DNA of 64,000 nucleotides from a virus, in the IMG/VR virus record IMGVR_UViG_3300046096_000189, positions 62,001-126,000 of that record; one strand, written 5' to 3'. The notes beneath the pieces are model-generated. The model did no database searches. It saw only the letters and a program-made list of their open reading frames with translations, and was not told the DNA's origin. This document shows positions 4,148 to 26,210 of the stretch, in pieces (position 1 is the stretch's first letter; every line of letters starts with the position of its first letter). Both the position numbers and the translations under genes were made by a program.

Positions 4148-4190
4148 AAAAAAAATAACACCCTGGCCTTTTGGGCTGGGGTGTTATTTT
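4148..4190. terminator. Bidirectional terminator closing portal gene and cassette 1
   Basis: A perfect-looking stem with arms AACACCCTGGCC and GGCTGGGGTGTT is flanked by A-runs on the left and T-runs on the right, so it can stop both converging genes. The same element recurs near-identically at 18895-18940. Confidence 0.85.
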
Positions 4191-4195
4191 AATTC

Positions 4196-4684
4196 TTATT
4201 TACTCAGGAGTTGTTTCAACTCCGTGATGTCTTTGGCAATACCGCCAGATCCATCCCAGGAATCACCTAGGAGCTGGATCATCGACGACAACCCAACCGC
4301 CCCTGTGGGAATTCCCAACAGGGTCAGTAGATTGTTTTGGGTAGTCTTGACAAAGACCCCCTCATTACCACTCTTGTAGCGCTCATGGACACATACGTGC
4401 CCGTATTCGCTACCTTGGACAATCAAGAGCCGATTAGTCTCCCAATCATAGGAGACGTACATGTCTCCGTCATTAATCTTCTCATACAGGACACCATCAT
4501 AGTATCCCGTACCATTTGCCCACTCTTGGCGATAAACCAGGATTTTGTTTTCTTTAACAAGTCTTTGACAGTGTCGGTAAAACACTGTCCCTGCTTCTGT
4601 CGTCGGAATGCGACCATTATTGTACAGGGTTTCATTGCCCTCACCCCAAAAGGTGAAAACGAATTTTTCGAATGTCTGTGCCAT
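4196..4684 (-). CDS. Unknown 162-residue protein, cargo of cassette 1
   Basis: A soluble, Trp/Tyr-rich 162-residue protein that I do not recognise. The N-terminal two thirds look beta-rich (segments EKFVFTFWGEGNE, DMYVSYDWETNRLLIVQGSE); the C-terminus is Gly/Leu-rich and ends in a helix. No signal peptide or membrane segment. It is the only gene between a long leader shared with three other loci and a terminator, so it forms an independent transcription unit. The AAGGAGATA ribosome site 3 nt before the ATG predicts strong translation. Its codons are richer in G and C than those of neighbouring virion genes. By analogy with the ring nuclease and protease carried by the sister cassettes it may act against host functions or defences (inference). 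Confidence 0.85.
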   Translation of the reverse strand: MAQTFEKFVFTFWGEGNETLYNNGRIPTTEAGTVFYRHCQRLVKENKILVYRQEWANGTGYYDGVLYEKINDGDMYVSYDWETNRLLIVQGSEYGHVCVHERYKSGNEGVFVKTTQNNLLTLLGIPTGAVGLSSMIQLLGDSWDGSGGIAKDITELKQLLSK

Positions 4685-4780
4685 GAGTATCTCCTTAACT
4701 GATAGTGTCGCAGAAAGAACGACTTAAACCACAGCGATAGCTCAAGTTAAGTGTACGTGATTGAAATATTTTCTAAGGCG
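4685..4780 (-). promoter_or_regulatory. Cassette leader A (promoter region, 5' UTR hairpin, strong RBS)
   Basis: Read on the minus strand, this block contains TTTCAATCACGTACACTTAA, then CTTGAGCTATCGCTGTGG, a small hairpin at 4723-4707 (GTCGT...GCGAC) and TTAAGGAGATACTC before the ATG at 4684. A 52-nt core matches leader B (10055-10150) with two differences, and the same order of elements occurs in leaders C and D. The upstream AT-rich part is the likely promoter (inference). Confidence 0.75.
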
Positions 4781-4782
4781 AG

Positions 4783-4814
4783 AAAAAGAAAAACACCGAG
4801 GTGTTTTTCTTTTT
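4783..4814 (-). terminator. Terminator of the small membrane-protein gene
   Basis: The inverted repeat AAAAAGAAAAACACC / GGTGTTTTTCTTTTT overlaps the stop codon region of the minus-strand gene at 4813-5070. It separates that gene from the cassette 1 leader. Confidence 0.75.
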
Positions 4815-5070
4815 AACCTTTTATTATCTTATTGTGTATCTTTTCCAAGACCAATAAAAAGATAATCAAAGCTATAAAACCTCTTAACACAAAAGCTGGA
4901 AAAGCCAACCAAGGATGTAACCCTTCCATGAAAACACTTATACCTTCAGTTACGCTAAAGATAAAGATAGCTGTGACTATAGATACAAAAGCTGTCAGGC
5001 TTAATAACAAACCATAAGCACTTACAGCTATAGCCAGAAGAAGCACAACCAGCATGAGAAGATAACCCAT
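4813..5070 (-). CDS. Small integral membrane protein
   Basis: An 85-residue, very hydrophobic protein with two or three predicted membrane segments (about residues 2-22, 24-45 and 56-76) and a basic C-terminal end, EKIHNKIIKG. No catalytic motif. It sits between the terminator of the 612-residue gene upstream and its own terminator, so it is probably transcribed by read-through or from a local promoter. A GGAAC sequence lies just before the ATG. The function is unknown; an inner-membrane role during infection is possible. Confidence 0.75.
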   Translation of the reverse strand: MGYLLMLVVLLLAIAVSAYGLLLSLTAFVSIVTAIFIFSVTEGISVFMEGLHPWLAFPAFVLRGFIALIIFLLVLEKIHNKIIKG

Positions 5071-5085
5071 TTGTTCCTTTCGGTT

Positions 5086-5120
5086 AAAAAAGATTACCCT
5101 GGCTTATGCCAGGGTAATCT
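5086..5120 (-). terminator. Terminator after the 612-residue protein gene
   Basis: A 13-bp stem, GATTACCCTGGCA / TGCCAGGGTAATC, is followed on the minus strand by a run of T. It lies directly after the stop codon at 5131. Confidence 0.85.
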
Positions 5121-5130
5121 GATTCTTCAC

Positions 5131-6969
5131 TTACACATCTTTACGGATGAGATAGCCACGACCGATGATGTTCTCGTATACACGATACACCACACCATCC
5201 TGAGTGATAATCAAATCATGGATACTGGTGTGCTGGCCTTGTTTCTTGTGAAGCACCAAAGAGTCTATGATCTTAGCAAGGATCGGAGTCTTACCGTGGT
5301 TCACAGAGCACAGCTGACCATCAAACTTGTAACCAAGCTCACGGTCTGTCATAGGCAGGTAAGTCAGAGTGTAGTTCTCCGACAAAGAGATGCATCCGAT
5401 CAGCTCACTGATGTCCAGGAGATTGCGAACTTCGTTGTCGATTTCATCACCCTCAGTTCGGAAGAACATGTTGATAACGTCATGACCGAAGTTACTCAAA
5501 CCCAGATTACCCATCTGACCACAGTTCTCATGGACATACGAAACCAAAGCTTCGTAGTCCTCAGTGAAACTGTCGATGGTCACATCTTTGAGTTGTAGGT
5601 TGTTAGCCAGAAACTCATTGATCAGATTGGTGATCCGGCGATCCACAGTCACCATCACAGAGATCTTGTCGTCCTGAGAACCTTCCACACCCCATTCATC
5701 ACTGGCTTGCTTGAAAGCTGCGGACAAAGATTTCATAGTAAGAGCGAGTTGCTCAAAGTTAGAAGCTTTAGCCAACATCTTCTTGTATTCAGTCATATCG
5801 TCTTTGGACAATATGGCGTTAGTAGCGATACCAAAGCACCTGAATACTTTACCACCAGCTGTGATACATTTGGATTTACCAGCTAAGATGACTGAATCCT
5901 CACTGATCTCCAAGATCATGTTGTTACCATCAACAACAGTGATATCAGCTTCATCAATCGCAGAGGCTTGTTTAAGAACCTCTACTTGCTGATTGAAGTT
6001 GTTGTTGCGTACCACAGAGTCCATAGGGTAAGCTTTACCCATGAACGTGATGGTGTGTTTGGATCGATCCATCTCATCTCCGTTGACATACACCACGTCT
6101 TTCAGACCTTGTGGTTCTGGTTTGCTGGCTGGTTTTTGGGCTTGTGGTTTTTCGTCTACCACATAACTCTTCTGTTGAACAGATACGTTACCGTATCGCT
6201 CGACGTTACCAGCGATGTTGGCAGCAGCAGGATTTTGCATCATACCTGGATTACCCTGATGCATGAACCCACCCACAGGACCCTGCTGCATAGGTTGCTG
6301 CATAGGCATCTGTTGCGGGAACTGCTGAGGCATCTGTTGCGGGTAGCTATGCATAGGTTGCTGCATAGGCATCTGCTGAGGATAGCTATGCTGCATAGGC
6401 ATTTGGAGCGGGCGTCCAAACTGATCTACAGGCTGACCCTGTTGATTATAGAAAATCTGTTGGTTTTGTTGGTTTTGCATGGGTTGTGACAATTGCTGTT
6501 GATACATTCTGTTTTGCAGATCCTGCAACTCCAATTTTAAGTTGTTGAAAAAGGCGGCGTTTTGCGCTGATGCGTCTACTACCCGTGAGTCTGAAGCATC
6601 ATGCACTGCGTCCACTGTAAGTACTAACATACTCGTATAGAGAGTCAAATACTTTTGAACGCAGTCTTTCATAGCCATGTCTGTAGAGGTATGATTTCTC
6701 TTCTCCACTTCTAAAGCCATGAATAATAATGTTTGGGTCAAAACTTCTTGAAACTGTGGGTTGTTCCAATTGTTCATAACCAAACTGTTGTAACAATACA
6801 TCCTGGCTCGGCTGTTGTTGGCTCTCATAGAAGCCTCATTAGCCATTGCAGCAGCTGTCTTGTGGACAAGATGCTGACAACCAGGTGGTGATGTCACTTG
6901 TACTGATAACGGGAAATTGTACTCCTCATACATAATCAGCGGTAGTATGGGAGCATCTGTAGGTAACAT
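5131..6969 (-). CDS. Large protein with Gln/Met/Pro-rich linker, unknown function
   Basis: A 612-residue protein. The start at 6969 is preceded by AAGGAG; a longer in-frame start 24 nt upstream has no such site. It has three parts: an N-terminal domain (about 1-150), a Gln/Met/Pro-rich low-complexity linker (about 150-270) with repeats such as SYPQQMPMQQPM, and a conserved-looking C-terminal domain (about 290-612) with mixed alpha/beta pattern. No enzyme motif was found. The gene lies between the RNA polymerase beta fragment and the portal, a neighbourhood that from memory resembles the phiKZ gp123-gp129 region. The linker suggests a flexible scaffold-like or multidomain early/structural protein (inference). 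Confidence 0.8.
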   Translation of the reverse strand: MLPTDAPILPLIMYEEYNFPLSVQVTSPPGCQHLVHKTAAAMANEASMRANNSRARMYCYNSLVMNNWNNPQFQEVLTQTLLFMALEVEKRNHTSTDMAMKDCVQKYLTLYTSMLVLTVDAVHDASDSRVVDASAQNAAFFNNLKLELQDLQNRMYQQQLSQPMQNQQNQQIFYNQQGQPVDQFGRPLQMPMQHSYPQQMPMQQPMHSYPQQMPQQFPQQMPMQQPMQQGPVGGFMHQGNPGMMQNPAAANIAGNVERYGNVSVQQKSYVVDEKPQAQKPASKPEPQGLKDVVYVNGDEMDRSKHTITFMGKAYPMDSVVRNNNFNQQVEVLKQASAIDEADITVVDGNNMILEISEDSVILAGKSKCITAGGKVFRCFGIATNAILSKDDMTEYKKMLAKASNFEQLALTMKSLSAAFKQASDEWGVEGSQDDKISVMVTVDRRITNLINEFLANNLQLKDVTIDSFTEDYEALVSYVHENCGQMGNLGLSNFGHDVINMFFRTEGDEIDNEVRNLLDISELIGCISLSENYTLTYLPMTDRELGYKFDGQLCSVNHGKTPILAKIIDSLVLHKKQGQHTSIHDLIITQDGVVYRVYENIIGRGYLIRKDV

Positions 6970-7012
6970 TTGAACTCCTTGTGATTTACTCAACTAAAGT
7001 AAATGTTACCAA

Positions 7013-8650
7013 TTATTTTTCCAGGACCCTGTTTGGAAGATAGAACATCTTCAAGGCTTTCTCTGTCTCAGAAAGAATATGCTCAAGCTCAGGGTTCTGA
7101 ATGAAGTTTCCTGTGTTGATATCTATCTTTGCATATGGATTCAAGCGGTTAGTCGGTGACGGATTGCTTTTACCCAGAAAGAGAATACTTCCTGTACTGA
7201 TCATACTGACATCCAAATGGTTGGCTTCAGAAATCACAGTTCTACCTTTACTCTCACGAGATCCATTACCTGTCGCTTCTTGCATGGCTGCTTTAGATGT
7301 GATCTTCAGGTACTTGTGGTCACCTGAGTACGACACTGCTTCAGCCACGATCCTTGACGATGCCAGTTTATAGATAGGTCCCGGATTGATCATTTTAGCC
7401 ATGGTGGTGCGAACGTCCTGAAACAACAGACGATTCCTCTTTTGAAGGATCTTGTTGATTTCAAACATGCATTTAATCATGCTTGAGGTAATGTCGTACA
7501 GCATGTAGTACATGACATCCAGGTTCTTTAGCCACATGTTGAGGTTACTGTTGGTATCCTCAAGCACCATCTGGTTAAAGCTCTTAACAATCACAGCCAA
7601 CAGATCGTAATATGTGTCTACACAGATATCTCTATCAGCCAACTTCTCAATAGCGATAGAGTCCATGCAATCATCCAGAGATATCAAGTGATCCTTGATA
7701 TCCATGATCAGTTTACTATGAGAATGATTACCCGAAAAGATAATGCTACCCAAAGTCATCATCCACTGTTCTCTGGTCTCCAGAAATGGAAGAGTCATCT
7801 GCAATGGGAAATGATCCACCACGTAAAAGAAACCAGCACAGAACTCACGAATGTTGTCATTCCAAAGGTGTCTTGGAATAGCCAGTCGAATCTCAGTCGG
7901 TTTATAAAACTTATCCTTACTGGTCTTTGGCTGAATCTTGGTAGACTCAACAATCACCCAATCACTCTCAGGAAAAGTCTCTGCATTAATCTCAGACCCA
8001 CCAGTTTTAGGTATACAGCCTGTATACCTTCTAAAGGTTTCTGAGAACCCATATTTAGCCAACAAGTAATGAATGTTGCAAGTGTTGGCTTTTGTAGTGG
8101 GTGGTAACTTTTTGGTGTTACTGTTTCTCCTATACAGACTGGCCCAGATGACGTGTGTCGTGATACGGACACTATCCACGGTGATGGAATGGTAACACCG
8201 ATAAAAACTGTTGCGATCACGAAGAACACGCACAAACACACTGGACTGCCCAGGAGATATCACCTTGTCAGATATCACTGGAGTGACATGGTACATCGTA
8301 CCGGACAAATGAAAAGTACCTGCTTCACCTATAATAGGCAAAGACAGATACCGATCAGGTAAACGCTCGCCTTCAAACTCAAACATGAACTTTACCAGGT
8401 AAAGATCAGATTGAGAAATGTCAGCGGTGCGTTTGTTATTCTTTACCCGAGTGTATTCAGTATACTCCTCAAGAGGCGTGCACCTTTTACAACCCAGATA
8501 ACGAAGTCCGGGGGGGTAACCTTTCAGATTCATGAAGACCTTATGCAAGTAGTCCTCAGGTCTCTGCATCACTGCTTGACCAACACCGTTCATGATCAAG
8601 GGATTTACCGGTGGTGTGTTCTGCACCAGAAAATCGTGAAATTGCCCCAT
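7013..8650 (-). CDS. RNA polymerase beta-subunit-like protein, N-terminal half
   Basis: A 545-residue protein resembling the N-terminal half of bacterial RNA polymerase beta. The clearest signal is residues 103-134 (LSLPIIGEAGTFHLSGTMY...ISPG), which follows the beta pattern 'P(L/M)M...GTFIINGTERV...SPG'. A second conserved block lies near 430-490 (GPIYKLASSRIVAEAVSYSG). phiKZ-like phages encode beta and beta' each as two or more polypeptides for virion and non-virion polymerases. From memory, the piece near the capsid gene in phiKZ (gp123) belongs to the non-virion enzyme, so this is probably its counterpart, transcribing late phage genes. The rest of beta and all of beta' lie outside the window. 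Downstream of the 408-residue gene by 18 nt, probably in the same transcript. Confidence 0.72.
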   Translation of the reverse strand: MGQFHDFLVQNTPPVNPLIMNGVGQAVMQRPEDYLHKVFMNLKGYPPGLRYLGCKRCTPLEEYTEYTRVKNNKRTADISQSDLYLVKFMFEFEGERLPDRYLSLPIIGEAGTFHLSGTMYHVTPVISDKVISPGQSSVFVRVLRDRNSFYRCYHSITVDSVRITTHVIWASLYRRNSNTKKLPPTTKANTCNIHYLLAKYGFSETFRRYTGCIPKTGGSEINAETFPESDWVIVESTKIQPKTSKDKFYKPTEIRLAIPRHLWNDNIREFCAGFFYVVDHFPLQMTLPFLETREQWMMTLGSIIFSGNHSHSKLIMDIKDHLISLDDCMDSIAIEKLADRDICVDTYYDLLAVIVKSFNQMVLEDTNSNLNMWLKNLDVMYYMLYDITSSMIKCMFEINKILQKRNRLLFQDVRTTMAKMINPGPIYKLASSRIVAEAVSYSGDHKYLKITSKAAMQEATGNGSRESKGRTVISEANHLDVSMISTGSILFLGKSNPSPTNRLNPYAKIDINTGNFIQNPELEHILSETEKALKMFYLPNRVLEK

Positions 8651-8668
8651 GTTACATTCCTTTGTTGG

Positions 8669-9895
8669 TTAAGAAAACTTACGCATAGCTGCCCATACAC
8701 CCAGTCCAGTTACCAAGCCAGCTCCCGCCATCTTGAGATACTCACTGCTGTCCTTACGTTCAGCTGACCTACTGTCATAATAATCATCTCTGACTCTAGA
8801 TTTTTGCTTAATATTATCTTCCAAAACCACAGTCTCGGTATTGAGTTTGTCTTTCAACATCTCATACTCCATTTTAGCCATCTTGGCTTTTGTCTCAAGC
8901 TCAGCGACTATCTTCTTGGTTTCAAGAAGAGTTTGTTCAAATGTGAAGCGTGTTTCGTTGAGTTCTGCTGTTTTCATTTCATTGGCTGCGCGCATAGATT
9001 CAGTTTCTTTTTTGGCCTGCTCAAGCAGAATGCTATTGCTTGCTTTTGAAGCCTCTAACTCATTTTGCATAATCAGAAGTTTCTGTTTGCTGAGTTGTTC
9101 AGCTTGGTCGTCAGACAAAGCTTGCTCAGCAGTTGGGTAAAGACCCAGTTTATCCTGAGCCTCATCCAAGCCCAGTATGCTAGGTATGGTGGTCATGCTA
9201 CCATCTTTGGACTTCAGTTCTGTGTAATAGACCCCGTTAGACCTGGATGGATCTTTAATAGGTTCAACCTCAATAAGAGACTTACCCATTTTTATGAACC
9301 TTTTACCATACCGGTTATCGTTGTCTACCACCTGTATGGTAGCGCCGCTGTAGATGTTTTCAAGACCCATGTCTTTAAACTGTCTAACGGTCCTACCTTC
9401 AGCACTGTAGGGATGGTGTATGTTAGCATGATAATCTTTACTCATGAGTAACAGATCCACACATGGCGCGTAACAAACTTTCAGCTTCGAGAGATTAGAA
9501 ATAGGATAACGACTATCCACCACAATCTCACAACTGAAGATAGACCTGTTAGTGTCAAATGCTTCAGTCAGAACCAGACGGATGGTTTCCAGTTCCTCAT
9601 TACCAGAACCATTCAACTTCTGATACTCAGTCAGCATGTTGATTACCTCAACGATAACCGCATTGTTCTGGAACTTGTAGATTGATCTGACGATAAACTC
9701 TTTGGAATGCACGACGCCATTAACAGCACGTCGAACAAACACAGGGAGATTATTCCTATTAACAACCACAACGTCTTCAGTTGTGTCGTTGATGAAGAAC
9801 ATTGTCTTGCGGAAAGGGCTGTGAAGCTCTTTCGTATTCTGTTCGTTTACCACCTTGGTTTCAGAACCGATATTTTGTACTTGGCTTGCCAGCAT
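8669..9895 (-). CDS. Coiled-coil protein with C-terminal membrane segment
   Basis: A 408-residue protein. The N-terminal part (about 1-235) is a beta-rich globular region, including the segment PFRKTMFFINDTTEDVVVVN. Residues about 240-370 form a long charged coiled coil (Glu/Lys/Ala heptads). The end (about 385-403) is a short hydrophobic stretch, YLKMAGAGLVTGLGVWAAM, that could insert in a membrane or pack in the virion. I do not recognise the family. It starts 18 nt upstream of the RNA polymerase beta fragment gene, suggesting a shared transcript. The ATG has GAGGAAC upstream. The sequence ahead of it (ACACATACTTTAATTGACC on the minus strand) resembles part of the cassette leaders and may be a promoter. 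Confidence 0.75.
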   Translation of the reverse strand: MLASQVQNIGSETKVVNEQNTKELHSPFRKTMFFINDTTEDVVVVNRNNLPVFVRRAVNGVVHSKEFIVRSIYKFQNNAVIVEVINMLTEYQKLNGSGNEELETIRLVLTEAFDTNRSIFSCEIVVDSRYPISNLSKLKVCYAPCVDLLLMSKDYHANIHHPYSAEGRTVRQFKDMGLENIYSGATIQVVDNDNRYGKRFIKMGKSLIEVEPIKDPSRSNGVYYTELKSKDGSMTTIPSILGLDEAQDKLGLYPTAEQALSDDQAEQLSKQKLLIMQNELEASKASNSILLEQAKKETESMRAANEMKTAELNETRFTFEQTLLETKKIVAELETKAKMAKMEYEMLKDKLNTETVVLEDNIKQKSRVRDDYYDSRSAERKDSSEYLKMAGAGLVTGLGVWAAMRKFS

Positions 9896-9983
9896 AAGTT
9901 CCTCTTTTTAAAAGTTGATTAAGCTCTTTGAGACAGAGCGGTCAATTAAAGTATGTGTGACTAACGATAGATACAAACAGAAC

Positions 9984-10030
9984 AAAAAAAAATAACACCC
10001 CCGGCCTGTAAGGGCTAGGGGTGTTAATTT
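9984..10030 (-). terminator. Terminator of empty cassette 2
   Basis: The stem AACACCCCTAGCC / GGCCGGGGGTGTT (minus strand) is followed by a long T-run. It is nearly identical to the cassette 4 terminator at 25671-25714. Confidence 0.85.
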
Positions 10031-10054
10031 ACGCCTCGATCACGCTCCAGCCAT
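10031..10054 (-). pseudogene. Deletion scar: start codon and gene tail of a lost cassette gene
   Basis: After leader B, the ATG at 10054 opens a frame of only four codons (Met-Ala-Gly-Ala-stop). The same 24 bases read one frame over as Gly-Trp-Ser-Val-Ile-Glu-Ala-stop, ending right before the terminator as the intact cassette genes do. I read this as the fusion of a start codon to the last codons of a former cargo gene after an internal deletion (inference). The unit may now make only a short RNA. Confidence 0.5.
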
Positions 10055-10150
10055 GATTATCTCCTTAACTGATAGTGTCGTAGAAAGAACGACTTAAACT
10101 ACAGCGATAGCTCAAATAGAATATATGTGATTGAAATTATTTACAAGAAC
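10055..10150 (-). promoter_or_regulatory. Cassette leader B, followed by no gene
   Basis: Same layout as leader A: TTTCAATCACATATATTCTA, CTTGAG-like TTTGAGCTATCGCTGTAG, hairpin at 10093-10077 (GTCGT...ACGAC) and TTAAGGAGATAATC. The hairpin closing pair is U-A where leader A has U-G. Confidence 0.75.
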
Positions 10151-10155
10151 TTATT

Positions 10156-10197
10156 TAGAAAAAAGATACACACAGCCTCATGGCTGTGTGTATTTTA
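10156..10197 (-). terminator. Terminator of the ribonucleotide reductase operon
   Basis: The stem ATACACACAGCC / GGCTGTGTGTAT with CATGA loop is followed by a T-rich run on the minus strand, six bases after the nrdB stop codon region. Confidence 0.85.
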
Positions 10198-10202
10198 ATC
10201 TA

Positions 10203-11309
10203 TCAGAAGTCAAACTCCATAGCCCCAGCTGGAACATCATGAGTATTCATACCCAGTAGATACCCACCTAAACGTTCTTCCTGAGCAGCACCTTGAATAC
10301 CATCAATAGTAATCCAATCAGCTGTAAAGGCCAAAGGTAGTTTCTTAGGAATATCAAACTCAGGTTGGATGCCAAAGAAACTGTAAACTTCACCTGCGTA
10401 ATAACAGACTTGTTGGCAAAGTTTCTCAGCTGTCAGACCAGATACTTCTCTTCCATTACGGAACAGAGTCTTATTAACCCAATCCAGTTCTGTCTGTATC
10501 ACAGCTTTGATCATCTCAGCTATCTGTGTGCGACACTGATTAAAAGCCATCAGACCTTTAGAAGTACGCATCATGGCATCAAGGATGATCATATCACCTT
10601 TAGAGTGAATATGATATTCATCCTGACAGATTTTCTGCACAGCTTTGGCAAATGGAATATATCTACCTGCTTCACCGTACGAGAAAGTCACTGTAAAGCT
10701 TGCCATGAACTGGATACGTTCCAGACACAAAAGAGCAGCTACATACATAAAGACCACGTTGTAGACTTCCTGACTGTTTCTATCCAGTTGGTTAAGAGCC
10801 AGTTTATGAGAGACCTCATAAGCTTTTTCAAGAACTGCGTTGATAACAGACATTCTTTCAAACGAAGGCTTTAGGGCCAGGATATCTCTCATGACCTTAT
10901 CAGGATCATCAAAAGCATTCTTGACCATCTCGCTGTATGTCAAAGCATGCACTTGCTCATTGTCACCCACACGCTGCCAATATGACCACAGAGTCGTATC
11001 GCTGGTAAAGTTAGCTCCAATACCGGAGATACCCTTACTCACCACACTGTCAGCTTCCCATTGCCAAGCAATAGTATCCAACATGATCTCGTAATCTGTG
11101 CGAGGGCAAGTCTTAAACTCTAACAAGCAAGATTGGAAATCGAATTCCATCTCATCCCAGTCCTGAGCTTTGAGTTTCTTATACAGATCTCTCAGCTCAG
11201 GTAACTGTACATTGATAGAGTCTGTCAATCCAGCATCTTCACCAAGTACAAGCTCAGTGCCGATATAGTCTTTCTTTTCATTGTTGAAAATCTTACTAGA
11301 ATAACTCAT
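10203..11309 (-). CDS. nrdB: Ribonucleotide reductase class Ia small subunit (R2)
   Basis: A 368-residue R2 subunit, which carries the diiron-tyrosyl radical used by NrdA to reduce ribonucleotides. Visible ligands are the Asp in QWEADSVVSK, the Glu/His pair and radical Tyr in NEQVHALTYSEM (E-x2-H-x3-Y), and the Glu in LLCLERIQF. The last ligand motif, normally D-E-x-x-H, reads QDEYHIH. Keeping the E-x2-H spacing puts Asp in the Glu position; otherwise the His is shifted by one. The start at 11309 (MSYSSK) has AGGTGAG upstream and lies 11 nt after the nrdA stop, so the two are one operon. The C-terminus GAMEFDF is the expected peptide that docks on NrdA. Confidence 0.93.
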   Translation of the reverse strand: MSYSSKIFNNEKKDYIGTELVLGEDAGLTDSINVQLPELRDLYKKLKAQDWDEMEFDFQSCLLEFKTCPRTDYEIMLDTIAWQWEADSVVSKGISGIGANFTSDTTLWSYWQRVGDNEQVHALTYSEMVKNAFDDPDKVMRDILALKPSFERMSVINAVLEKAYEVSHKLALNQLDRNSQEVYNVVFMYVAALLCLERIQFMASFTVTFSYGEAGRYIPFAKAVQKICQDEYHIHSKGDMIILDAMMRTSKGLMAFNQCRTQIAEMIKAVIQTELDWVNKTLFRNGREVSGLTAEKLCQQVCYYAGEVYSFFGIQPEFDIPKKLPLAFTADWITIDGIQGAAQEERLGGYLLGMNTHDVPAGAMEFDF

Positions 11310-11320
11310 ACTCACCTTTT

Positions 11321-13765: not shown

Positions 13766-13862
13766 GAATGACTTCCTTATTAGGGTTAAATCTGTTAGTT
13801 TTCTCTAAGTATTTTGTACTGAGCCAAACTATAAGTCTGCTAGTTATTTAGATATTCGAGGC

Positions 13863-13902
13863 AAAAAAAAAAAGATACCAGGGATGTCCCTGGTATCCTT
13901 AA
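13863..13902 (-). terminator. Terminator after the 148-residue gene
   Basis: The stem GATACCAGGGA / TCCCTGGTATC is followed on the minus strand by a run of eleven T. It separates the 148-residue gene from nrdAB. Confidence 0.85.
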
Positions 13903-14349: not shown

Positions 14350-14413
14350 AATATTTTACTAAGGATGAATTGAGACGACTAATCTATATAACTTTAGTCT
14401 AAATAAAAAAGGG

Positions 14414-14450
14414 AAAAAAGAAAAGGACCCCCGGAAGGGTCCTTTTCTTC
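14414..14450 (-). terminator. Terminator of the major capsid gene
   Basis: The stem AAAAGGACCC / GGGTCCTTTT with flanking A/T runs lies about 30 nt after the capsid gene stop codon. Confidence 0.85.
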
Positions 14451-14480
14451 TATTAGAGGCAATATTACTATCGCCTAAAC

Positions 14481-16622: not shown

Positions 16623-16658
16623 TTCGAGTTCCTTAGTTGGTTTCAGAAAAGTTAACTG

Positions 16659-17270
16659 TCACAAAACGCTACCTTGAAGTTCTTTCAGGTAAACAGAATA
16701 AATGCCGAGGCTGGATGCTCTGCCGGACGACATCATAGAATAGAACTGATCGACGCATTTTTTAGAAAAGTTAAATGCGCCTTTCTTGGTTTGGAGAGTA
16801 TTGATAATACCCTCGTCGACGATAATGTAAACGACGTGAGTGTCTTTTACGAATGTGTAAGTTTTAGACTCTATACCGAAAGCATCTTCAATCTCCACAA
16901 CAGGCATTCCATCCTGCATTGTGGTTAGTCTATTTCTCATGTATAGTTTATTTTCTTCCATACCAACTAAGGGTTGAACGGAATACTCCAGCTCTTTTAA
17001 TTGCTCTGTGGTGAGATTTTGGAAATGACAAGACAGTTTAAATCCATCGAACCAAAACAGATTCTTATTTCTGTATGTGGTGTATAAAGGACTAAAAGCC
17101 TCATCGACATAGGCCCAATCTCTCAGATCATTAAGCGATAGAACACCACGGACTTTACCGTAGTTTCTAAAATCCATAATATCTATTTTATTACGTATCA
17201 ATATCTGATATATCCATCTGGGGATTGGACACACAACAGATGAATTCAAAAAAGGTATGTCGGTACTCAT
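16659..17270 (-). CDS. Unknown 203-residue protein upstream of the capsid gene
   Basis: The start at 17270 (MSTDIPFLNSS) is preceded by CCGAGG; a longer frame of 20 more codons has no ribosome site. The protein is soluble and of mixed structure, with the segments PRWIYQILIRNKIDIMDFRN and THVVYIIVDEGIINTLQTKK. I do not recognise a domain. It ends 36 nt before the major capsid gene and no terminator lies between, so the two are probably co-transcribed. From memory phiKZ has a gene (gp119) at the same place. A role in head assembly or late expression is possible (inference). Confidence 0.72.
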   Translation of the reverse strand: MSTDIPFLNSSVVCPIPRWIYQILIRNKIDIMDFRNYGKVRGVLSLNDLRDWAYVDEAFSPLYTTYRNKNLFWFDGFKLSCHFQNLTTEQLKELEYSVQPLVGMEENKLYMRNRLTTMQDGMPVVEIEDAFGIESKTYTFVKDTHVVYIIVDEGIINTLQTKKGAFNFSKKCVDQFYSMMSSGRASSLGIYSVYLKELQGSVL

Positions 17271-17354
17271 GGTTAAACCTCGGTGAAGATTTTTATCAGA
17301 TAGGGCTATGTTATGTCTCGATCGTACCAAACACTTAAATAAGAAGATAAGTCC

Positions 17355-18893: not shown

Positions 18894-18894
18894 A

Positions 18895-18940
18895 CAAAAA
18901 AAAATAACACCCTGGCCTTTTGGGCTGGGGTGTTATTTTT
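18895..18940. terminator. Bidirectional terminator between helicase and cassette 3
   Basis: The stem-loop is base-for-base the same as at 4148-4190 over its core (AACACCCTGGCC...GGCTGGGGTGTT) and has A- and T-runs on the two sides. It serves both the plus-strand helicase and the minus-strand protease. Confidence 0.85.
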
Positions 18941-18941
18941 A

Positions 18942-19583
18942 TCAGCAGAGCACAGGCTGCTGAGAAGCTTTGAACTTCTCACGCATAGCTTGTACTCGCT
19001 CTTCTAACGACTCCAGAATTTCTGGATGGCCCAGAAGAGTGTCCGTCATTACCTGACGAATTTCCATCAAAGCGTAATACGCTTGTTGGAAACCAACCAC
19101 AGATGCTGCGTAAGCATCTGCTTCCAGCTCAAAACGTTGAACGGATTTTGTTAATCCAGCATTTTCAAGACGGAACATATGCTGGTCTTTGAGATGGCCA
19201 AACTCATGTTCCGTGATGAACCTCAGTGTCTCTTCGGTATAGAGACCTTTCATGGTCAATACCAGATCGACCTTACCGATCGACATGGTCATCCCACCAC
19301 CGAAATTTTTAACAAGCTCTGTGAGGTTTGTCACAAAGACTTTCCCTGTTACAGGATGTCTTACCATAGTGGTCAGCCAATACCAATTTGGCATCTCGAC
19401 CCACTTCACTTTTCTCCCGTTAGGGAGCTTGGCGGTCTTGCACCACCAAGTGGTGCAGCAGATGGTCAGGACAAGCCTGACCACTTGACTCTCCTTCAAC
19501 CGGTCCCCGAACAGGGACCAACCGGTGGTCAAAGCCACAGCCGTGAAGAAAGTAACGCCAAGTACCAAAGAAAACTGTTCCAT
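18942..19583 (-). CDS. M48-like zinc metalloprotease, cargo of cassette 3
   Basis: A 213-residue protein. Residues 5-25 form a membrane segment, and a second hydrophobic stretch is at about 34-48. The zinc-protease motif HEFGH is at 126-130 and the third ligand motif FELEADAYA at 151-159, the arrangement of M48 peptidases (HtpX/Ste24 group). The protein is shorter than HtpX and keeps only one or two membrane segments. The start at 19583 has AAGGAGATA 4 nt upstream; a longer frame starting at 19601 overlaps this site. It is the single gene of a cassette with leader C and a terminator. A role in degrading host membrane or surface proteins, or a defence protein, is possible (inference). Confidence 0.82.
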   Translation of the reverse strand: MEQFSLVLGVTFFTAVALTTGWSLFGDRLKESQVVRLVLTICCTTWWCKTAKLPNGRKVKWVEMPNWYWLTTMVRHPVTGKVFVTNLTELVKNFGGGMTMSIGKVDLVLTMKGLYTEETLRFITEHEFGHLKDQHMFRLENAGLTKSVQRFELEADAYAASVVGFQQAYYALMEIRQVMTDTLLGHPEILESLEERVQAMREKFKASQQPVLC

Positions 19584-19680
19584 AACTATCTCCTTAGTCA
19601 CAAGTTCGAAAGATGTTTCGATTAAACTGTAACGATAGTCAAGTTAAGTATATGTGACCAAAATACTTTATAAGGATATC
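19584..19680 (-). promoter_or_regulatory. Cassette leader C
   Basis: On the minus strand: TTTTGGTCACATATACTTAA, CTTGACTATCGTTACAG, a 6-bp hairpin with CATC loop at 19621-19606 (TCGAAA...TTTCGA), then TAAGGAGATAGTT before the ATG. It is the most diverged copy in sequence but keeps the order and the hairpin. The same stretch must also hold the promoter of the plus-strand gene at 19729 (AAAATACTTTATAAGG is a candidate). Confidence 0.7.
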
Positions 19681-19728
19681 TAGTTAACCTGGATATCTTT
19701 TGACTATAAACCTTAAGGACTTTACAAT

Positions 19729-20652
19729 ATGAACGGTAAACTATATCAAGAAGAACAAAGTACAGCTTCTTCTAATGGTAAAGAGTACGATCTAAATATT
19801 CTATTTAAGAGAATTAAGAATAAACAATCTATAGACATACCTATTGATAAACTCATATGGGTGTTAGAATATACAGTTATAGACGAACTAAGAGTTAAAA
19901 ACGCTGATGTCTCAATTCCTATATTGATTTACAATGACAAAAAAGATGGATATGTGACTATAGACGGAGCGCACAGACTGACCAAAGCTTTTAGATTAAA
20001 GATGAAAGTTATACCTGGTGTGATGTTAAGTGATGAGGATATGGAAGCAGCTGAGATAAATAAAAAGAAAATAGCTTTGCTATCCGATAGTAATAATGTT
20101 TGGCAAATAGATTTTGGTCCTTCTTACACACCCAAAGAGATGTTAGAACTGGGTGTTTTTGAAGGTAAGTATGTCAACAACGTGAAAGGCATACCAGCTG
20201 ACTGGAAGAAAAGTGATAAAGTATTAGGCTCTGATGATGAACCTGATCCCAGTGTTAATAAGTACGGAGTTAAATCAAGACAACCTTTATCAGTTTGGAA
20301 AAAGAACGATTGGATAAAAACAGACCCTAACGGATGGTTCGCTTGGTACTGTAATTATTATCTAGGTAGAAGACTAGGTGAAGAAGATGAATGGCAGATC
20401 AAACGCTGGAGAAGTTTTGTAGCTAGACATCAGGCTCAGATCAAAGCAGATCCCAAAGGACATCTTAAAGACAGACGCTTAGCTCAAAAGCAAGGTTTGT
20501 TACAATGGGCGTGGGATTGGGAACAGAACTTCACTGATAAGAACGTAACTATCAACGCTAAAAGAATAGCTAAGTCTGCTGGCGCTAAGCTAGATAAAGA
20601 AGAACCAGCTTTAGAAAATATGATTCTGCCTGCTTTTGCCAGGTGGATTTAA
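19729..20652 (+). CDS. ParB/sulfiredoxin-like domain fused to a GWFxWY domain
   Basis: A 307-residue protein with two parts. Residues 35-120 look like a ParB/Srx-type N-terminal domain: conserved-looking positions include the hydrophobic core VSIPILIYNDKKDGYVTIDG followed by AHR (compare the 'IDGxHR' phosphate-binding motif). Residues about 180-285 contain PNGWFAWYCNYYLGRR and EDEWQIKRWRSFVARHQAQI, a Trp-rich module I have seen in other phage and viral proteins of unknown function. ParB-like domains bind CTP or ATP and often DNA; the second module may bind nucleic acid (inference). AAGGA lies before the ATG. The next plus-strand gene starts 54 nt downstream. Confidence 0.7.
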   Translation: MNGKLYQEEQSTASSNGKEYDLNILFKRIKNKQSIDIPIDKLIWVLEYTVIDELRVKNADVSIPILIYNDKKDGYVTIDGAHRLTKAFRLKMKVIPGVMLSDEDMEAAEINKKKIALLSDSNNVWQIDFGPSYTPKEMLELGVFEGKYVNNVKGIPADWKKSDKVLGSDDEPDPSVNKYGVKSRQPLSVWKKNDWIKTDPNGWFAWYCNYYLGRRLGEEDEWQIKRWRSFVARHQAQIKADPKGHLKDRRLAQKQGLLQWAWDWEQNFTDKNVTINAKRIAKSAGAKLDKEEPALENMILPAFARWI

Positions 20653-22263: not shown

Positions 22264-22264
22264 G

Positions 22265-22561: not shown

Positions 22562-23693
22562 CATTAATTAACTTCGGTGTGGTAAAACCAATCTTTGTAT
22601 TTATCCTTTTTAACCCTGTGTGTCACTAAACCTTGCGATATTTTGAAATATCTAGAAGCATCAGCACATGAGTTAAAAAGAATTCCACCTGCAAATACCT
22701 TACGAGTGTTTGTTGGTGGGATACCTATTCTGTTTTCCCTAAGTTTTCTTTTTGTTTCTTCAGTATGTTTTCTATTGAAGAAAGAATTCTTAGAACCGGT
22801 TCTTAAACGTTGACGTGCTCTGATTTTTTCAATTTGTTCTTCAGAAAGTTTACAACCTTTGTTGTAGCTATGACCTTTATGCATTAAAGATATAAGCTTT
22901 CTGGTTTCAACTGAATGTTGTCTTCCAAACATTCCATTAGCTGAACCATTTTTACCCCAAAGGTTTTTTCTTTCTAAAACAGACATTGACGCTATATTTT
23001 TAGCTTGTGTTTTGTTTCTTCTGTCTAATATGTCATCACGTTTTGGATGATTAGATAAAGAATTGCCAAATTTAGAATTTAAACTTATATTAGCCAGTAG
23101 GTTTTTATTCAGACCTGTGTATGACTTTATTATAAGCTTTTCCTCTAATTGAAAAGCTTCTTCCCTAGAACTACACGGAATAGAGGAAACTTTATAATCA
23201 GTTCCTTCACACCATGCTTCTTGTAAACGCAGATTATGGTGATTGTTTCTTTTCAACGACCTAAAATGAGTTCGAAGTCTTTTCTTTAAATTTGACGTAC
23301 TACCTATATAAAACACACCTGTTTTTGTTAATGTGAGTATATAAACACAAAAATCATTACTGTTCATATAGATTCCTCGTTAGGATTACCATATAATGAA
23401 CACAGCACTGCTTTACATCTCTGTAAAGATAGATCATATCACCACCTTCAGCCTTACCTGTTAAGGGTTCCCCGTTTCGAAGCGATTCACATCGGTTCTA
23501 CGTCTTTCGACTGATCGTTGAACTTTCTCCAGTTTAAAGGAGCTTAGCTGCTGATTGTCTCTACCTACTAATTTTCAAACACGTTACGTATGTGTTTTCA
23601 CACTCCGCTTTGGTTTAGTAGTCTAACAAGGGTTTCCAGCAATTAGAGGAATTTTCAAATAGGTATTTCTACCTATACAGCGCTCAGTTATTA
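22562..23693 (-). other. Group I intron in thyA, 1132 nt
   Basis: The boundaries are supported by two pairings read on the minus strand. P1: exon end CAGCGT pairs with intron nt 11-16, GCGCTG, with the expected U-G at the splice site. P10: exon 2 start TCAGT pairs with intron nt 6-10, ACTGA. The intron ends in G. The core is in the first 330 nt: a P-like segment AATTGCTGGAAACC, an R-like segment GTTCAACGATCAG and an S-like segment GATATGATCTA, with GATCA/TGATC forming P7. The homing endonuclease gene follows the core and runs to 2 nt from the 3' splice site. T4 td has an intron in the same gene but at a different codon and with its ORF in P6. Confidence 0.9.
22564..23367 (-). CDS. GIY-YIG homing endonuclease, I-TevI type, in the thyA intron
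   Basis: A 267-residue protein. Residues 1-90 form the nuclease: CVYILTLTKTGVFYIGSTS is the GIY-YIG core (VYI...YIG), the catalytic Arg is in LKKRLRTH, and the metal-binding Glu is in FQLEEKLIIKS. Residues about 140-200 hold two NUMOD3-like DNA-binding repeats (NGMFGRQHSVETRKLIS and NSFFNRKHTEETKRKLREN). The end (225-262) has a helix-turn-helix NUMOD1-like unit (FNSCADASRYFKISQGLVTH). It probably cuts intronless thyA alleles to spread the intron. GAGG lies before the ATG; its stop codon sits 2 nt from the exon 2 junction. Confidence 0.93.
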   Translation of the reverse strand: MNSNDFCVYILTLTKTGVFYIGSTSNLKKRLRTHFRSLKRNNHHNLRLQEAWCEGTDYKVSSIPCSSREEAFQLEEKLIIKSYTGLNKNLLANISLNSKFGNSLSNHPKRDDILDRRNKTQAKNIASMSVLERKNLWGKNGSANGMFGRQHSVETRKLISLMHKGHSYNKGCKLSEEQIEKIRARQRLRTGSKNSFFNRKHTEETKRKLRENRIGIPPTNTRKVFAGGILFNSCADASRYFKISQGLVTHRVKKDKYKDWFYHTEVN

Positions 23694-24542
23694 ACGCTGG
23701 AACATAAGTAGGTTCAAACGCTTCTTACCACCTTCATTGAGAGCAGGTTGTACAAAGCATTGGAACATAACATGGCATGGTGCCAAAGCACCCATACCCA
23801 ACAATACATTCAGATCAGGAGAAATCTTATTGTCAGGAATGAATTGTGGTAACCATGAGCTTACCACAAGACGTGAAGAATAAGGATTGTTTTTCAGTTC
23901 AGCCAGAAGAATACCTAATTGATCTACCTTAGAGACATAAGTCTTCTGAATGAAATCAGTCTCTGTGACGGGATCTGTTCCATCATCTTCTGCTTCTTTA
24001 TAAGCAAGATATTCTTTATAAGCTTCTTTAAAAGCTTCTACTTTATCAGAAGGAATATCTTCGATAGGTGGTTTGTTTCTGAGAAGTTGGTGAATGTTAC
24101 TCATCTCATCAGCAGGGGCATGGCGCCAGTTAAAGCCGTACAAAGGACCGATAGATCCGATACGCTCACTGATCTGTTCACGAAGTTTAGCCATGAGCAT
24201 TTCATTACCGGCCATACTCTGACGATCTTCTTCTGATTCAAACTTAGACAAGAAATATTCCATGAACTTATCCACTGTTTTTTCAGTGACAGCCCAGTTA
24301 TCCCAGATATGCACATTTGCTTCATTCAGCAAAGTGTTATCAATCTCACCAGCGATAAACCAAAGCAATTCTTCTTTCATACCTCGAAAGAAGATCTTAC
24401 GAGTAGTGACCAAAGGAAAACCATCACTCATGTTGAATCGGACTTGTCTACCGAAGATAGATCGACGACCTACGCCGGTACGATCGGGATGATCATGTCC
24501 ATTGTCACGGATATCCTTGAGGAGTTCTATATAAGTCTTCAT
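23694..24542 (-). CDS. thyA: Thymidylate synthase, exon 1 (N-terminal 283 residues)
   Basis: The enzyme methylates dUMP to dTMP with methylene-tetrahydrofolate. Visible motifs: HPDRTGVGRRSIFGRQVRF (phosphate-binding Arg), FPLVTTRKIFFRGMKEELLW, VHIWDNW, GPLYGFNWRHAP, SSRLVVSSW, and the catalytic Cys in GALAPCHVMFQ. Two insertions (about residues 86-128 and 150-200) make the protein longer than the usual 260-290 residues. Exon 1 ends in CAGCGT; the frame hits TAA at once in the intron, so splicing is needed. It is the first gene of a thyA-folA-H1-like unit, 6 nt downstream of a tail-anchored protein gene. Confidence 0.95.
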
Positions 24543-24548
24543 GGTGGT

Positions 24549-24872
24549 TTATATGTTTTTAAAGATGATGTAAGAACCAAGACTGATGATTATCCAAGAC
24601 AACAACATCAGCCAATAAATCATTTTCTCTCTTTGGTCTAACAGATAGCTTATGTCATCTTTAAGATCCAAAAGCTGATTAAGATCAGCAAGTTGAGATT
24701 CAATTTCAACGATGTCTGATGTCAGAGCATCTATTTTCTTGTAACTCTGATTGATTCTTGTGTCTATACGTTTGCTATCTTTACCAATAGCAGCTTTAAG
24801 ACCAGCCATAGATCTCTGCAGAGATGTTACATCTACACCCACGTCAGCTTTATAACGATGATGTCTGGACAT
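24549..24872 (-). CDS. Tail-anchored coiled-coil membrane protein (107 residues)
   Basis: The N-terminal ~25 residues are basic (MSRHHRYKADVGVDV), residues about 35-80 form a coiled coil (DIVEIESQLADLNQLL), and residues 86-104 are a membrane segment (YWLMLLSWIIISLGSYIIF) ending in KNI. There is no signal peptide, so the bulk faces the cytoplasm. It is 2 nt from the similarly built 95-residue protein, suggesting that they work together. A host membrane target or phage-induced structure is possible; no family was recognised. Confidence 0.75.
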   Translation of the reverse strand: MSRHHRYKADVGVDVTSLQRSMAGLKAAIGKDSKRIDTRINQSYKKIDALTSDIVEIESQLADLNQLLDLKDDISYLLDQREKMIYWLMLLSWIIISLGSYIIFKNI

Positions 24873-24874
24873 AG

Positions 24875-25162
24875 TTAGTTAAAGTAAAGATTGACGACAA
24901 GAGCTGCAAAAATAGAACTTGTTATCGCCAGTGCAATAAGCATTCTTCTGACATTATCCAGCTGTTCCTGAAGAGCGTAGACGCTATTGCCCAATGATTC
25001 TAGTTTGAGGTTGGTACCTGCTTCAACAGTCGACGCGTTGGTTTGGAGAATTATCAGCTTCGACTCCAGGTCTGTGATAGCTTTATTCAATTCTTCTTTA
25101 CTAGCTGCTAAAGGTTTAGTTGTGGTGTTGCCGTTTGCTTCTTCAATAATGAGGTTTTCCAT
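24875..25162 (-). CDS. Tail-anchored coiled-coil membrane protein (95 residues)
   Basis: Residues about 20-70 are a charged coiled coil (KEELNKAITDLESKLIILQ, LGNSVYALQEQLDNVRR) and residues 73-93 are a C-terminal membrane segment (MLIALAITSSIFAALVVNLY). Same architecture as its neighbour at 24549-24872 but with little sequence identity, so either a distant paralog or convergence. AAGGAAAC lies before the ATG. Its upstream gene, the macro-like protein, ends 11 nt away. Function unknown. Confidence 0.75.
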   Translation of the reverse strand: MENLIIEEANGNTTTKPLAASKEELNKAITDLESKLIILQTNASTVEAGTNLKLESLGNSVYALQEQLDNVRRMLIALAITSSIFAALVVNLYFN

Positions 25163-25172
25163 GATTGTTTCC

Positions 25173-25634
25173 TTAGGTTAAAAAACGTTTCCATTCATAA
25201 GGCATCCAGCATCTCTCTATGCCTTTAAACATAGGAGCTATCTGCTCATGCTTATATCCAGCTAACCCTGTGCCTACCGCTGTGACAAAAAAAGTTTTGT
25301 CTTTGAGTATAGTGGTTACTATTCTAAAGGTCTCTACTCTTTTCTCTATTTCTTCTAGCGGTAGAGGTTGCAGCATATGTGACTTAGTAGGTAAGGCATA
25401 ACAGTTACCCATTCTACCCTCACCTACACCGTAGATAGCTCCATAGTCTGTAGCAGCTTTAAGAGCAGCACCTTTACCATGTCTACCAGCTAGGTTAGAA
25501 CCAAATACAAAAAGTATACTTGGGTAGAGGATAATGTTGTTCTCAGGAAAGTAATATTTGACACCTTTTTCAATAGGTAGAAGTACAGTGTCATACTTCT
25601 TCATCATCTCAAAATCTATTTCAAAATTTGACAT
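25173..25634 (-). CDS. Macro-like phage protein (A1S_2505-type)
   Basis: A 153-residue protein with the features of the macro-like phage family often annotated as A1S_2505-like: ILFVFGSNLAGRHGKGAALK, GAIYGVGEGRMGNCYALPTK and FFVTAVGTGLAGYKHEQIAP. Those Gly-rich loops correspond to the ADP-ribose-binding loops of macro domains. Binding or removal of ADP-ribose or a related signal nucleotide is therefore possible (inference). It follows the cassette 4 terminator and begins the cluster macro - two membrane proteins - thyA - folA. The upstream sequence has no strong Shine-Dalgarno. Confidence 0.8.
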   Translation of the reverse strand: MSNFEIDFEMMKKYDTVLLPIEKGVKYYFPENNIILYPSILFVFGSNLAGRHGKGAALKAATDYGAIYGVGEGRMGNCYALPTKSHMLQPLPLEEIEKRVETFRIVTTILKDKTFFVTAVGTGLAGYKHEQIAPMFKGIERCWMPYEWKRFLT

Positions 25635-25670
25635 ATTTGTTTTCCATAATCAAAAAATGAAAGCTGTGAA

Positions 25671-25714
25671 TAAAAAAATAACACCCCCGGCCTGTGAGGG
25701 CTAGGGGTGTTATT
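25671..25714 (-). terminator. Terminator of cassette 4
   Basis: The stem AACACCCCTAGCC / GGCCGGGGGTGTT is followed by a T-run, 3 nt after the ring-nuclease gene. It differs from the cassette 2 terminator by a single base in the loop region. Confidence 0.88.
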
Positions 25715-25716
25715 TA

Positions 25717-26115
25717 TCAAGCTTGATGTGTGATCCAAGCTTGAAGAGCCTGACCCATGGCCAGCTCTTCAGCACGTCCTGATCTCACATCAGGGAACTT
25801 TACATGGACCATGAACCACTTGATCGTGGCTCCTTCGGGCAATGTGGTTGCCCCTTCGGGCAGTCGTGGTCCAGAATATTGACCAACAATGATTGTCTCA
25901 TTGCTGGTCAGGTCCACGGTCACCCGTGCAGCGGGGATTTCCACCCCCAGCTGCTGAGAAAATACAGAAGCTGTGTCGGCATGACCGACACAGCTTTCCA
26001 CCCCTACCTCCAAAAACTCCTTGACTTCAGCCGGAGTGATTTGGATCACTTTGATGTCGGCGATGAGCGCCGACACCATGTTGAGACTGAAAGCGTTGCA
26101 AATTTTAATTGCCAT
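25717..26115 (-). CDS. DUF1874 / AcrIII-1-like viral ring nuclease candidate, cargo of cassette 4
   Basis: A 132-residue protein matching the DUF1874 (STIV B116 / AcrIII-1) family. Shared features: ICNAFSLNM at the N-terminus, VGHADTA with the candidate catalytic His45 (His47 in SIRV1 gp29), Arg64 in AARVTVDL, and QYSGPRLPEGAT (Gln79, Arg84, Glu87), compare 'SQRLEEGKVLS' in B116. Characterised members bind and cleave cyclic tetra-adenylate, disarming type III CRISPR defence. The second half-repeat TLPEGATIKW and a helical end are typical of the larger bacterial/phage forms. It is the single gene of a cassette with leader D, which has GGGGATA instead of GGAGATA. Some family members have no link with CRISPR, so activity is inferred. 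Confidence 0.85.
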   Translation of the reverse strand: MAIKICNAFSLNMVSALIADIKVIQITPAEVKEFLEVGVESCVGHADTASVFSQQLGVEIPAARVTVDLTSNETIIVGQYSGPRLPEGATTLPEGATIKWFMVHVKFPDVRSGRAEELAMGQALQAWITHQA

Positions 26116-26210
26116 GAGTATCCCCTTAACCAGCAGTGTTACAGATGTGTAACTTAAACCACTAGCGATATCTCAAGTTAAGTTTATGTGATTGAAATAT
26201 TCTCTAAGGG
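26116..26210 (-). promoter_or_regulatory. Cassette leader D
   Basis: On the minus strand: TTTCAATCACATAAACTTAA, CTTGAGATATCGCTAGTGG, a 6-bp hairpin with CATC loop at 26153-26138 (GTTACA...TGTAAC) and TTAAGGGGATACTC before the ATG. The stem sequence differs from the other leaders but pairs perfectly. Confidence 0.75.

Follow-up and report, generated by a model that had tools for sequence, protein, structure and literature searches.

Four places in a 64,000-nucleotide stretch of viral DNA (the window; bases 62001-126000 of the 163,977-base virus record IMGVR_UViG_3300046096_000189, here G000, the whole of which was examined) carry the same minus-strand unit, made of a leader, one small gene or none, and a terminator. 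The question that they raise is whether such units form a slot for exchangeable accessory genes and, if so, what their common leader contributes. We found that the cargo of these cassettes turns over between related phages, that the downstream half of the leader is a covarying structured 5' untranslated region (UTR), and that the cargo coding sequences of the record are tiled with local hairpins. On balance, we lean slightly towards the view that these are exchangeable accessory cassettes whose mRNAs are end-sealed and internally armoured against ribonucleases.

The 25-mer TTTCAATCACATATACTTAACTTGA, together with a profile derived from its matches, picked out nine minus-strand leaders in the record, at 160.4, 88.2 (cassette D), 81.7 (C), 72.1 (B), 66.8 (A), 48.9, 44.9, approximately 31.5 and 8.5 kb; the window holds four of them, at 4.7, 10.1, 19.6 and 26.2 kb of its own numbering, and the other five lie outside it. 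The leader alone matched at eight record places with E values from 2.4e-59 to 2.6e-6, far beyond chance. All four units of the original prediction were present in the window, as were the near-identity of leaders A and B (approximately 58 nucleotides matched, with two mismatches), the terminator cores (one common to terminators 1 and 3, another to 2 and 4) and the listed cargo (a 162-residue protein without family match, nothing, an M48-like protein and a DUF1874 protein), whereas its count of four fell short of the nine in the record. Matching exact leader patterns against IMG/VR brought up two genuine relatives, G003 (120 kb, 70-95% nucleotide identity to G000) and the more distant G004 (113 kb), which together hold approximately 25 further cassettes. 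Contigs G001 and G002 were rejected as relatives because they are the same phage as the record (overlap 99.998-100%), and they were never counted as independent; G002 adds 44 kb to the phage genome. A typical cassette runs from a stem-loop through a phage-type promoter and the 5' UTR to one small open reading frame (ORF), sometimes none, and a terminator. A small ORF follows every record leader except those at 72.1 kb (four codons) and 8.5 kb (no ORF), and eight of the nine record cassettes are closed, either at once or with another small ORF in between, by terminators of the AACACCCC...GGGGTGTT family (one of them a ATCATCCCC...GGGGATGAT variant), which have a long T run. Across the three phages, stem-loops stand 20-60 nucleotides upstream of most leaders, with a few sites, such as 26.8 kb of G003, lacking a clear one. 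The strong and independent expression originally proposed for the units may be expected from this anatomy. Two more cassettes come from another contig of this phage, one with a diverged leader and one a micro-cassette with an 18-residue ORF (e.g., MEVREITLTEVEWLFYFG). The micro-cassette has the same leader, is conserved in three phages (G002 61313-61460, minus strand; G003 111803-111946; G004 46838-46985), and its ORF is mostly one hairpin.

Between persisting promoters and terminators, the cargo is exchanged, deleted, multiplied or relocated. The proposal of a reusable accessory slot had called for relatives in which the cargo changes within a constant frame, and relatives were indeed found to keep flanks and promoter around different cargo. 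At five of the eight sites shared by G000 and G003 the cargo differs, with promoters 0.88-0.92 identical or, at 8.5 kb, with the leader left behind. At 48.9 kb, flanks (0.97 and 0.94), promoter (0.92) and terminator (0.89) correspond between the two phages and the cargo, of 66 residues in G000 and 208 in G003, has an identity of 0.26 (control 0.25). At 44.9 kb, where the flanks are 0.96 and 0.94 identical, the first ORF has an identity of 0.71 and the second is no more alike than expected by chance (0.52/0.52); near 31.4 kb the cargo of G000 (98 residues) and that of G003 (70 residues) match at chance level, and G004 has a 46% identical homologue there. Two sites that are empty in G000 are occupied in G003, by a 112-residue DUF1874 gene at 72.1 kb and by two complete cassettes at 8.5 kb. 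At the 8.5-kb site itself (L009:8441-8525) a deletion scar is visible, the leader being fused to the 3' half of a terminator at CTATC|GGCTGGGGTTTATTTTTTTT. Cargo is conserved between G000 and G003 at 66.7, 81.7 and 88.2 kb. The 160-kb site holds a small protein without family in G000 and an HREDGPA-repeat protein in G004, and the M48-like cargo of G004 lies between homologues of record 126.5 and 127.1 kb, not at the 81.7-kb site.

The 57-60 nucleotides that follow the promoter fold as nested helices P0, P1 and P2. P0 pairs the 5' end of the RNA with the bases just before AUG, and an internal loop that separates P0 from P1 contains the Shine-Dalgarno (SD) core, which stayed open in each of five folds examined. 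Among 28 leaders from the three phages, 88.4% of the alignment cells are paired, compared with 22-52% in slid controls, and 82 cells carry a double change, compared with 27 in shuffles; none of 500 shuffles reached the observed value of any measure. Two-sided compensatory change occurs in 14 of the 20 pairs and best supports P2 (five of five pairs) and P1 (six of eight); P0 is only 79% paired, in part because one subgroup sits one base off in the alignment. A covariance model gave 33 matches (E <= 7e-6) in the three related phages, all of them cassettes; the 322 kb of Burkholderia phage FLC9, the nearest named phage by head protein (42.5% amino acid identity), yielded no match. In Rfam the UTR had no match, the sole family at its gathering score in the window being the group I intron. 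This covariance-model search, suggested together with the original prediction, found the full leader before cassettes only and never before ordinary genes, and so did not return the widespread distribution that would speak against a dedicated slot, although the promoter half is shared. The structured UTR is cassette-specific. The leader might instead be a regulatory switch, such as a protein operator, thermosensor or riboswitch, with the cassettes as its regulon and stability as a secondary matter. P0 joins the 5' end to the spacer between SD and AUG, its opening could control initiation, and confinement of the UTR to cassettes would suit a regulon; however, GTTTAA and the SD sequence are the only conserved unpaired elements, loop sequences vary without any further motif resembling a ligand or protein site, and the SD core is already open in every fold, so that we consider such a switch unlikely.

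Judged by its encoded proteins, the phage is phiKZ-like and of the nucleus-forming type, because record gene 156028-157896 encodes a homologue of chimallin/PhuN (PDB 8fne, 5e-27; 7sqq, 9e-21), which marks membership of the Chimalliviridae, and phiKZ-type proteins accompany it: the major head protein, RNA polymerase (RNAP) beta subunit and tail sheath match phiKZ-type PHROGs, and window protein 7013-8650 matches phiKZ gp123 in solved RNAP structures (2.5e-50). The original leader of approximately 95 nucleotides stood as a cassette-specific unit in its UTR half and not in its first approximately 26 nucleotides, which are a promoter and also occur, without the downstream part, 20-55 nucleotides before ordinary genes (e.g., window 5131-6969 and 8669-9895). 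The chimallin gene has the same promoter in a weaker form approximately 100 nucleotides upstream. The promoter is general rather than cassette-bound, because it precedes the ordinary gene 8669-9895 without any UTR structure. Reversed sequence, scanned at an equal threshold, gave 19 promoter sites, compared with 50 in G000 and G003, and weak sites therefore carry no meaning. The motif is TANACTTTAYTTGA-like, a promoter scan of window 1-20000, which takes in leaders A-C but not D, returned no sigma-70 match at those three, and the phage encodes its own RNAP subunits. Early promoters of the virion RNAP (vRNAP) of phiKZ-like phages consist of an AT-rich element, then six bases and G(+1) (PMC5312081, PMC7598289). 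TATACT-TAACTT-G of the cassette promoter fits this rule, and the predicted +1 is therefore the G in TTGA, with which P0 begins. The promoter is probably an early one used by the virion RNAP, and cassette transcripts would accordingly be early and begin at that G. Beside the shared promoter, window 5131-6969 (minus strand) encodes a 612-residue protein with a Q/M-rich low-complexity stretch and no family match, 55% identical in G003 and with a weak C-terminal match in FLC9; it had been suspected to be chimallin and was rejected, as it has no match to that protein.

The original prediction overlooked the hairpin-rich coding sequences of the cargo. Local folding of the eight cargo ORFs of G000 is -16 to -23 kcal/mol per 60 nucleotides, compared with -10.4 in other genes. 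Measured against synonymous shuffles that keep the protein and codon counts, the folding excess of cargo is -3.6 to -7.0 kcal per 60 nucleotides, compared with a mean of -1.28 in 142 other genes (p = 8e-13). Perfect stems of at least 7 bp number 18 in 2.65 kb of cargo (mean 2.5 and maximum 6 in 30 synonymous shuffles), and perfect-stem density is 6.8/kb in cargo versus 0.83/kb in other genes; examples are ACACTAGAGTTGTC-CGAA-GACAACTCTAGTGT in the 208-residue cargo of G003 and CGGCTGCGAC-GAT-GTCGCAGCCG in the 98-residue cargo of G000. The same pattern was found in the cargo of G003 (median -4.3 versus -1.35; p = 1e-6) and in the non-repeat cargo of G004 (p = 5e-7). Of 35 cargo ORFs, 14 have a hairpin that covers or adjoins the stop codon, compared with 6 of 143 others (counts include homologues). 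Such density was not found in FLC9, 50 kb of phiKZ or 41 kb of RB49, the last of which has 0.63 stems/kb and at most 1 per 400 nucleotides. Cargo also differs from the record in GC content (0.46-0.55 versus 0.41) and has low codon scores, as would be expected if it had recently been imported from hairpin-rich, GC-rich elements and its structure and codon use were a signature of origin. We regard this as improbable, because GC-matched resident genes have no such hairpin excess (e.g., the head protein, GC 0.52, excess -0.88), DUF1874 homologues outside these phages, in unrelated viruses and in a bacterium, reach only -1.4 to -2.8 compared with -4.8 to -8.8 here, and the property is common to unrelated cargo proteins.

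In homologous cargo, such as the three DUF1874 copies, new hairpins arise near the same place, and single stems in the coding sequences are not compensated better than in ordinary genes; hence, either generic structure is selected or palindromes are made by mutation. A mutational origin would mean that strand switching in replication or repair perfects imperfect palindromes in weakly constrained, recombination-prone DNA, without any RNA function. Most stems are perfectly Watson-Crick paired with little difference between strands, they turn over instead of being conserved, and cassettes are recombination hot spots, all of which suits this process. However, the ORFs remain open with functional motifs intact, 55 other small phage genes (up to 220 residues) have no comparable excess (mean -1.43), eight repeat-protein cargoes of G004 occupy the same slots without hairpins, and the sense preference, though small, is significant (excess -4.58 sense versus -4.12 antisense; p = 0.008). 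The raw sense/antisense folding gap was rejected as a strand signal, being mostly compositional; it is the small excess that survives the shuffle control. Among single stem interruptions, G.T was seen in six distinct hairpins and A.C not at all; this, together with the sense excess, modestly favours selection at the RNA level, and we consider a purely mutational origin rather unlikely. Several of these observations nevertheless weigh against armoured messages as well. The repeat-protein cargoes are not rich in hairpins behind the same leader, single stems lack better compensation, and the sense preference is small, so that DNA-level palindromes or a mutational origin keep some probability. Record gene 7834-8307 is hairpin-rich (-3.95) without the UTR; it is the only comparable non-cargo gene and adjoins the empty 8.5-kb cassette. 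The phages known to carry cassettes, moreover, number only three.

According to the armoured-cassette reading, the phage-type promoter would start a short transcript whose first nucleotide is already paired in P0 with the bases before the start codon, P1 and P2 would stack above P0 and leave the SD core alone open, and a coding sequence full of local hairpins, often with one on the stop codon, would be closed by a strong terminator hairpin. With neither its 5' nor its 3' end free and little single-stranded RNA, such a message would resist host or defence ribonucleases and be well translated. Resistance to ribonucleases is a plausible purpose of the hairpins because RNA structure protects T4 messages against RegB, and RNase E drives T4 mRNA decay (PMC3014915). 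Because near-identical promoters, UTRs and terminators supply homologous ends, recombination at these ends may replace, remove and move cargo, and the phage would thereby swap anti-defence and other takeover genes. That the cassettes define an armoured class of message, in which the whole transcript, from 5' end through coding sequence and stop codon to 3' end, is selected for generic local structure and thereby outlives ribonuclease attack, and in which any cargo gene that arrives is gradually turned by recoding into a string of hairpins, is a tentative idea to which we give clearly less than even credence.

Anti-defence cargo, also part of the original prediction, was supported by DUF1874 genes at two sites, with a hint from one CARF-linked protein of G004, whereas most cargo has no recognised family or function. 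Cargo D matches PF08960 (DUF1874) above the cut-off (9.7e-8) and PDB 2j6b (AFV3-109; 1.1e-5), and has His45 in GHADTA and the PRLPEGA motif; the region of GHADTA and PR..LPEGA is kept in three phage DUF1874 copies and aligns with GHQATA and RLPEG of AFV3-109. By such family, AFV3-109 and motif matches, cargo D and the 112-residue cargo of G003 belong to the DUF1874/AcrIII-1 ring nuclease family, with cleavage of cyclic tetraadenylate (cA4) as their predicted activity. These viral ring nucleases are a known family, and we found no account of one being packed into a structured cassette. Scanning bacterial genomes for DUF1874 yielded a single distant relative. Cargo C matches Pfam PF01435 (peptidase M48) with 22.3 bits (cut-off 20.3) and carries HEFGH, a zinc motif of the HExxH form; its homologue in G004 scores 18.4 bits, under the cut-off. 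Cargo A has no Pfam or PHROG match, and its fold prediction was too poor to use (pLDDT 41); the 98-residue cargo was modelled better (pLDDT 74), with no convincing PDB or viral match. Searches by tblastn with cargo A and with the 208-residue cargo of G003, and by blastn of annotated phages with the cassette and one window segment, gave no match. A G004 cargo (L054:18075-18431) matches the PADLOC entry 'Unk_01, small protein sometimes fused to CARF' (4.5e-14) and is possibly a further type III counter-defence gene. The HREDGPA-repeat family of G004 is present in eight cassettes, three of them in tandem (L051:12111-13984 and other sites), and in several of its genes a palindrome (e.g., TTAAACAGGATCCACCTGTTTAA) spans the stop codon. 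The type III-linked cargo suggests another role for the hairpins, namely, that what they keep away from the earliest anti-defence messages is recognition by RNA-guided or antisense systems (type III CRISPR, Cas13) and not general ribonucleases. Transcripts of nucleus-forming phages are exported and thus exposed to RNA-targeting systems (PMC13282480), the phage encodes chimallin, the DUF1874 genes and the CARF-linked protein all point to type III, and fast hairpin turnover is what escape would favour. On the other hand, most cargo has no CRISPR link, ordinary genes with that promoter lack such structure, and local hairpins would leave other genes visible to spacers, which makes shielding of this kind quite unlikely in our estimation.

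Table 1. Cassette features in the window (window coordinates).
Feature	Position	Strand	Basis
Cassette A terminator (AATAACACCCCAGCCC..GGGTGTTATTTTTTTT); also faces convergent plus-strand gene 1458-4136	4148-4191	-	sequence, terminator scan
Cassette A cargo: 162-residue protein, hairpin-rich coding sequence; 77% identical homologue at same G003 site	4196-4684	-	
Cassette A 5' UTR: P0-P1-P2, SD in internal loop; predicted +1 at 4743	4685-4743	-	
Cassette A promoter (ATTTCAATCACGTACACTTAACTTGA)	4742-4767	-	
Stem-loop upstream of promoter A	4783-4814	.	terminator scan
Promoter of same type without UTR structure, before ordinary gene 8669-9895	9941-9967	-	
Cassette B terminator (AACACCCCTAGCCC..GGGGGTGTTATTTTTTTTT)	9986-10028	-	sequence
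Cassette B residual ORF MAGA* (ATG GCT GGA GCG TGA), no cargo; 112-residue DUF1874 gene in G003	10040-10054	-	
Cassette B 5' UTR (P0-P1-P2); best covariance-model score, 99.4 bits over 10055-10137	10055-10113	-	
Cassette B promoter	10112-10137	-	
Terminator-like stem-loop upstream of promoter B	10166-10193	-	terminator scan
Cassette C terminator, core as in A	18895-18940	-	sequence
Cassette C cargo: 213-residue M48-like metalloprotease (HEFGH motif), hairpin-rich coding sequence	18942-19583	-	
Cassette C 5' UTR (P0-P1-P2)	19584-19640	-	covariance model
Cassette C promoter	19639-19664	-	
Cassette D terminator, core as in B	25671-25716	-	sequence
Cassette D cargo: 132-residue DUF1874/STIV_B116-like protein (AcrIII-1 type ring nuclease family), hairpin-rich coding sequence	25717-26115	-	
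Cassette D 5' UTR (P0-P1-P2)	26116-26174	-	fold, covariance model
Cassette D promoter	26173-26198	-	
Stem-loop upstream of promoter D (AGAGATATCCTACCCTTAAGGGTAGGATATCTCT)	26207-26248	.	sequence

The group I intron of the window (23411-23703, minus strand) adjoins a thymidylate synthase gene apparently split by it (22564-23367, 23691-24431) and is accompanied by a gene for a GIY-YIG/I-TevI-like homing endonuclease. At least seven further group I introns occur in the same phage as a dispersed family of approximately 300-nucleotide repeats, present also in G004 (record positions 12154, 14698, 19400 and 19747 in L009; 139912, L013:13912; 152347 and 152718, L014:6347 and 6718), an unusually high number for one phage.

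Promoter early stem-loops (PeSLs) of T4-type phages are reportedly the subject of Arbiol 2010 and Comeau 2014. The original statement that no such set had been described was too strong, as far as paper titles, one citing paper (PMC4503421) and general knowledge allow the comparison: PeSLs are promoter-terminator cassettes that mediate gene shuffling in T4-type phages such as RB49/phi1. As in PeSLs so described, a terminator stem-loop and an early promoter, the stem-loop standing first, are repeated between accessory genes, and genes are exchanged between close relatives. Unlike the hosts of PeSLs, the phage here is phiKZ-like with its own polymerases and not T4-type, the cassette promoter is not sigma-70-like as are PeSL promoters, which host RNA polymerase serves, and the cassettes include a covarying cassette-only 5' UTR, a shared 3' terminator and a hairpin-tiled coding sequence. 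Morons of temperate phages are likewise single accessory genes with their own promoter and terminator, atypical in composition and variable among relatives; in contrast, the cassettes belong to a lytic-type jumbo phage, exist in many copies with one leader and terminator set, and are apparently not expressed from a prophage. 5'-terminal stem-loops of the ompA type protect bacterial mRNAs and, as here, hold the 5' end in a helix with the SD sequence open, whereas the pairing found here runs round the SD sequence to the base before AUG, is common to approximately 30 genes and is combined with hairpins across the coding sequence. The modularity of the cassettes thus resembles that of PeSLs and morons, and the structured cassette-specific UTR and hairpin-tiled cargo go beyond PeSLs as the sources above present them.

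Searching with the leader model and then inspecting the cargo offers a rule by which takeover and anti-defence genes of giant phages can be found, as the DUF1874 genes at two sites illustrate. The cargo coding sequences would carry a second layer of constraint in the form of dense local structure, and the small cargo genes (70-210 codons) make the effect of mRNA structure on message survival in infection directly testable.

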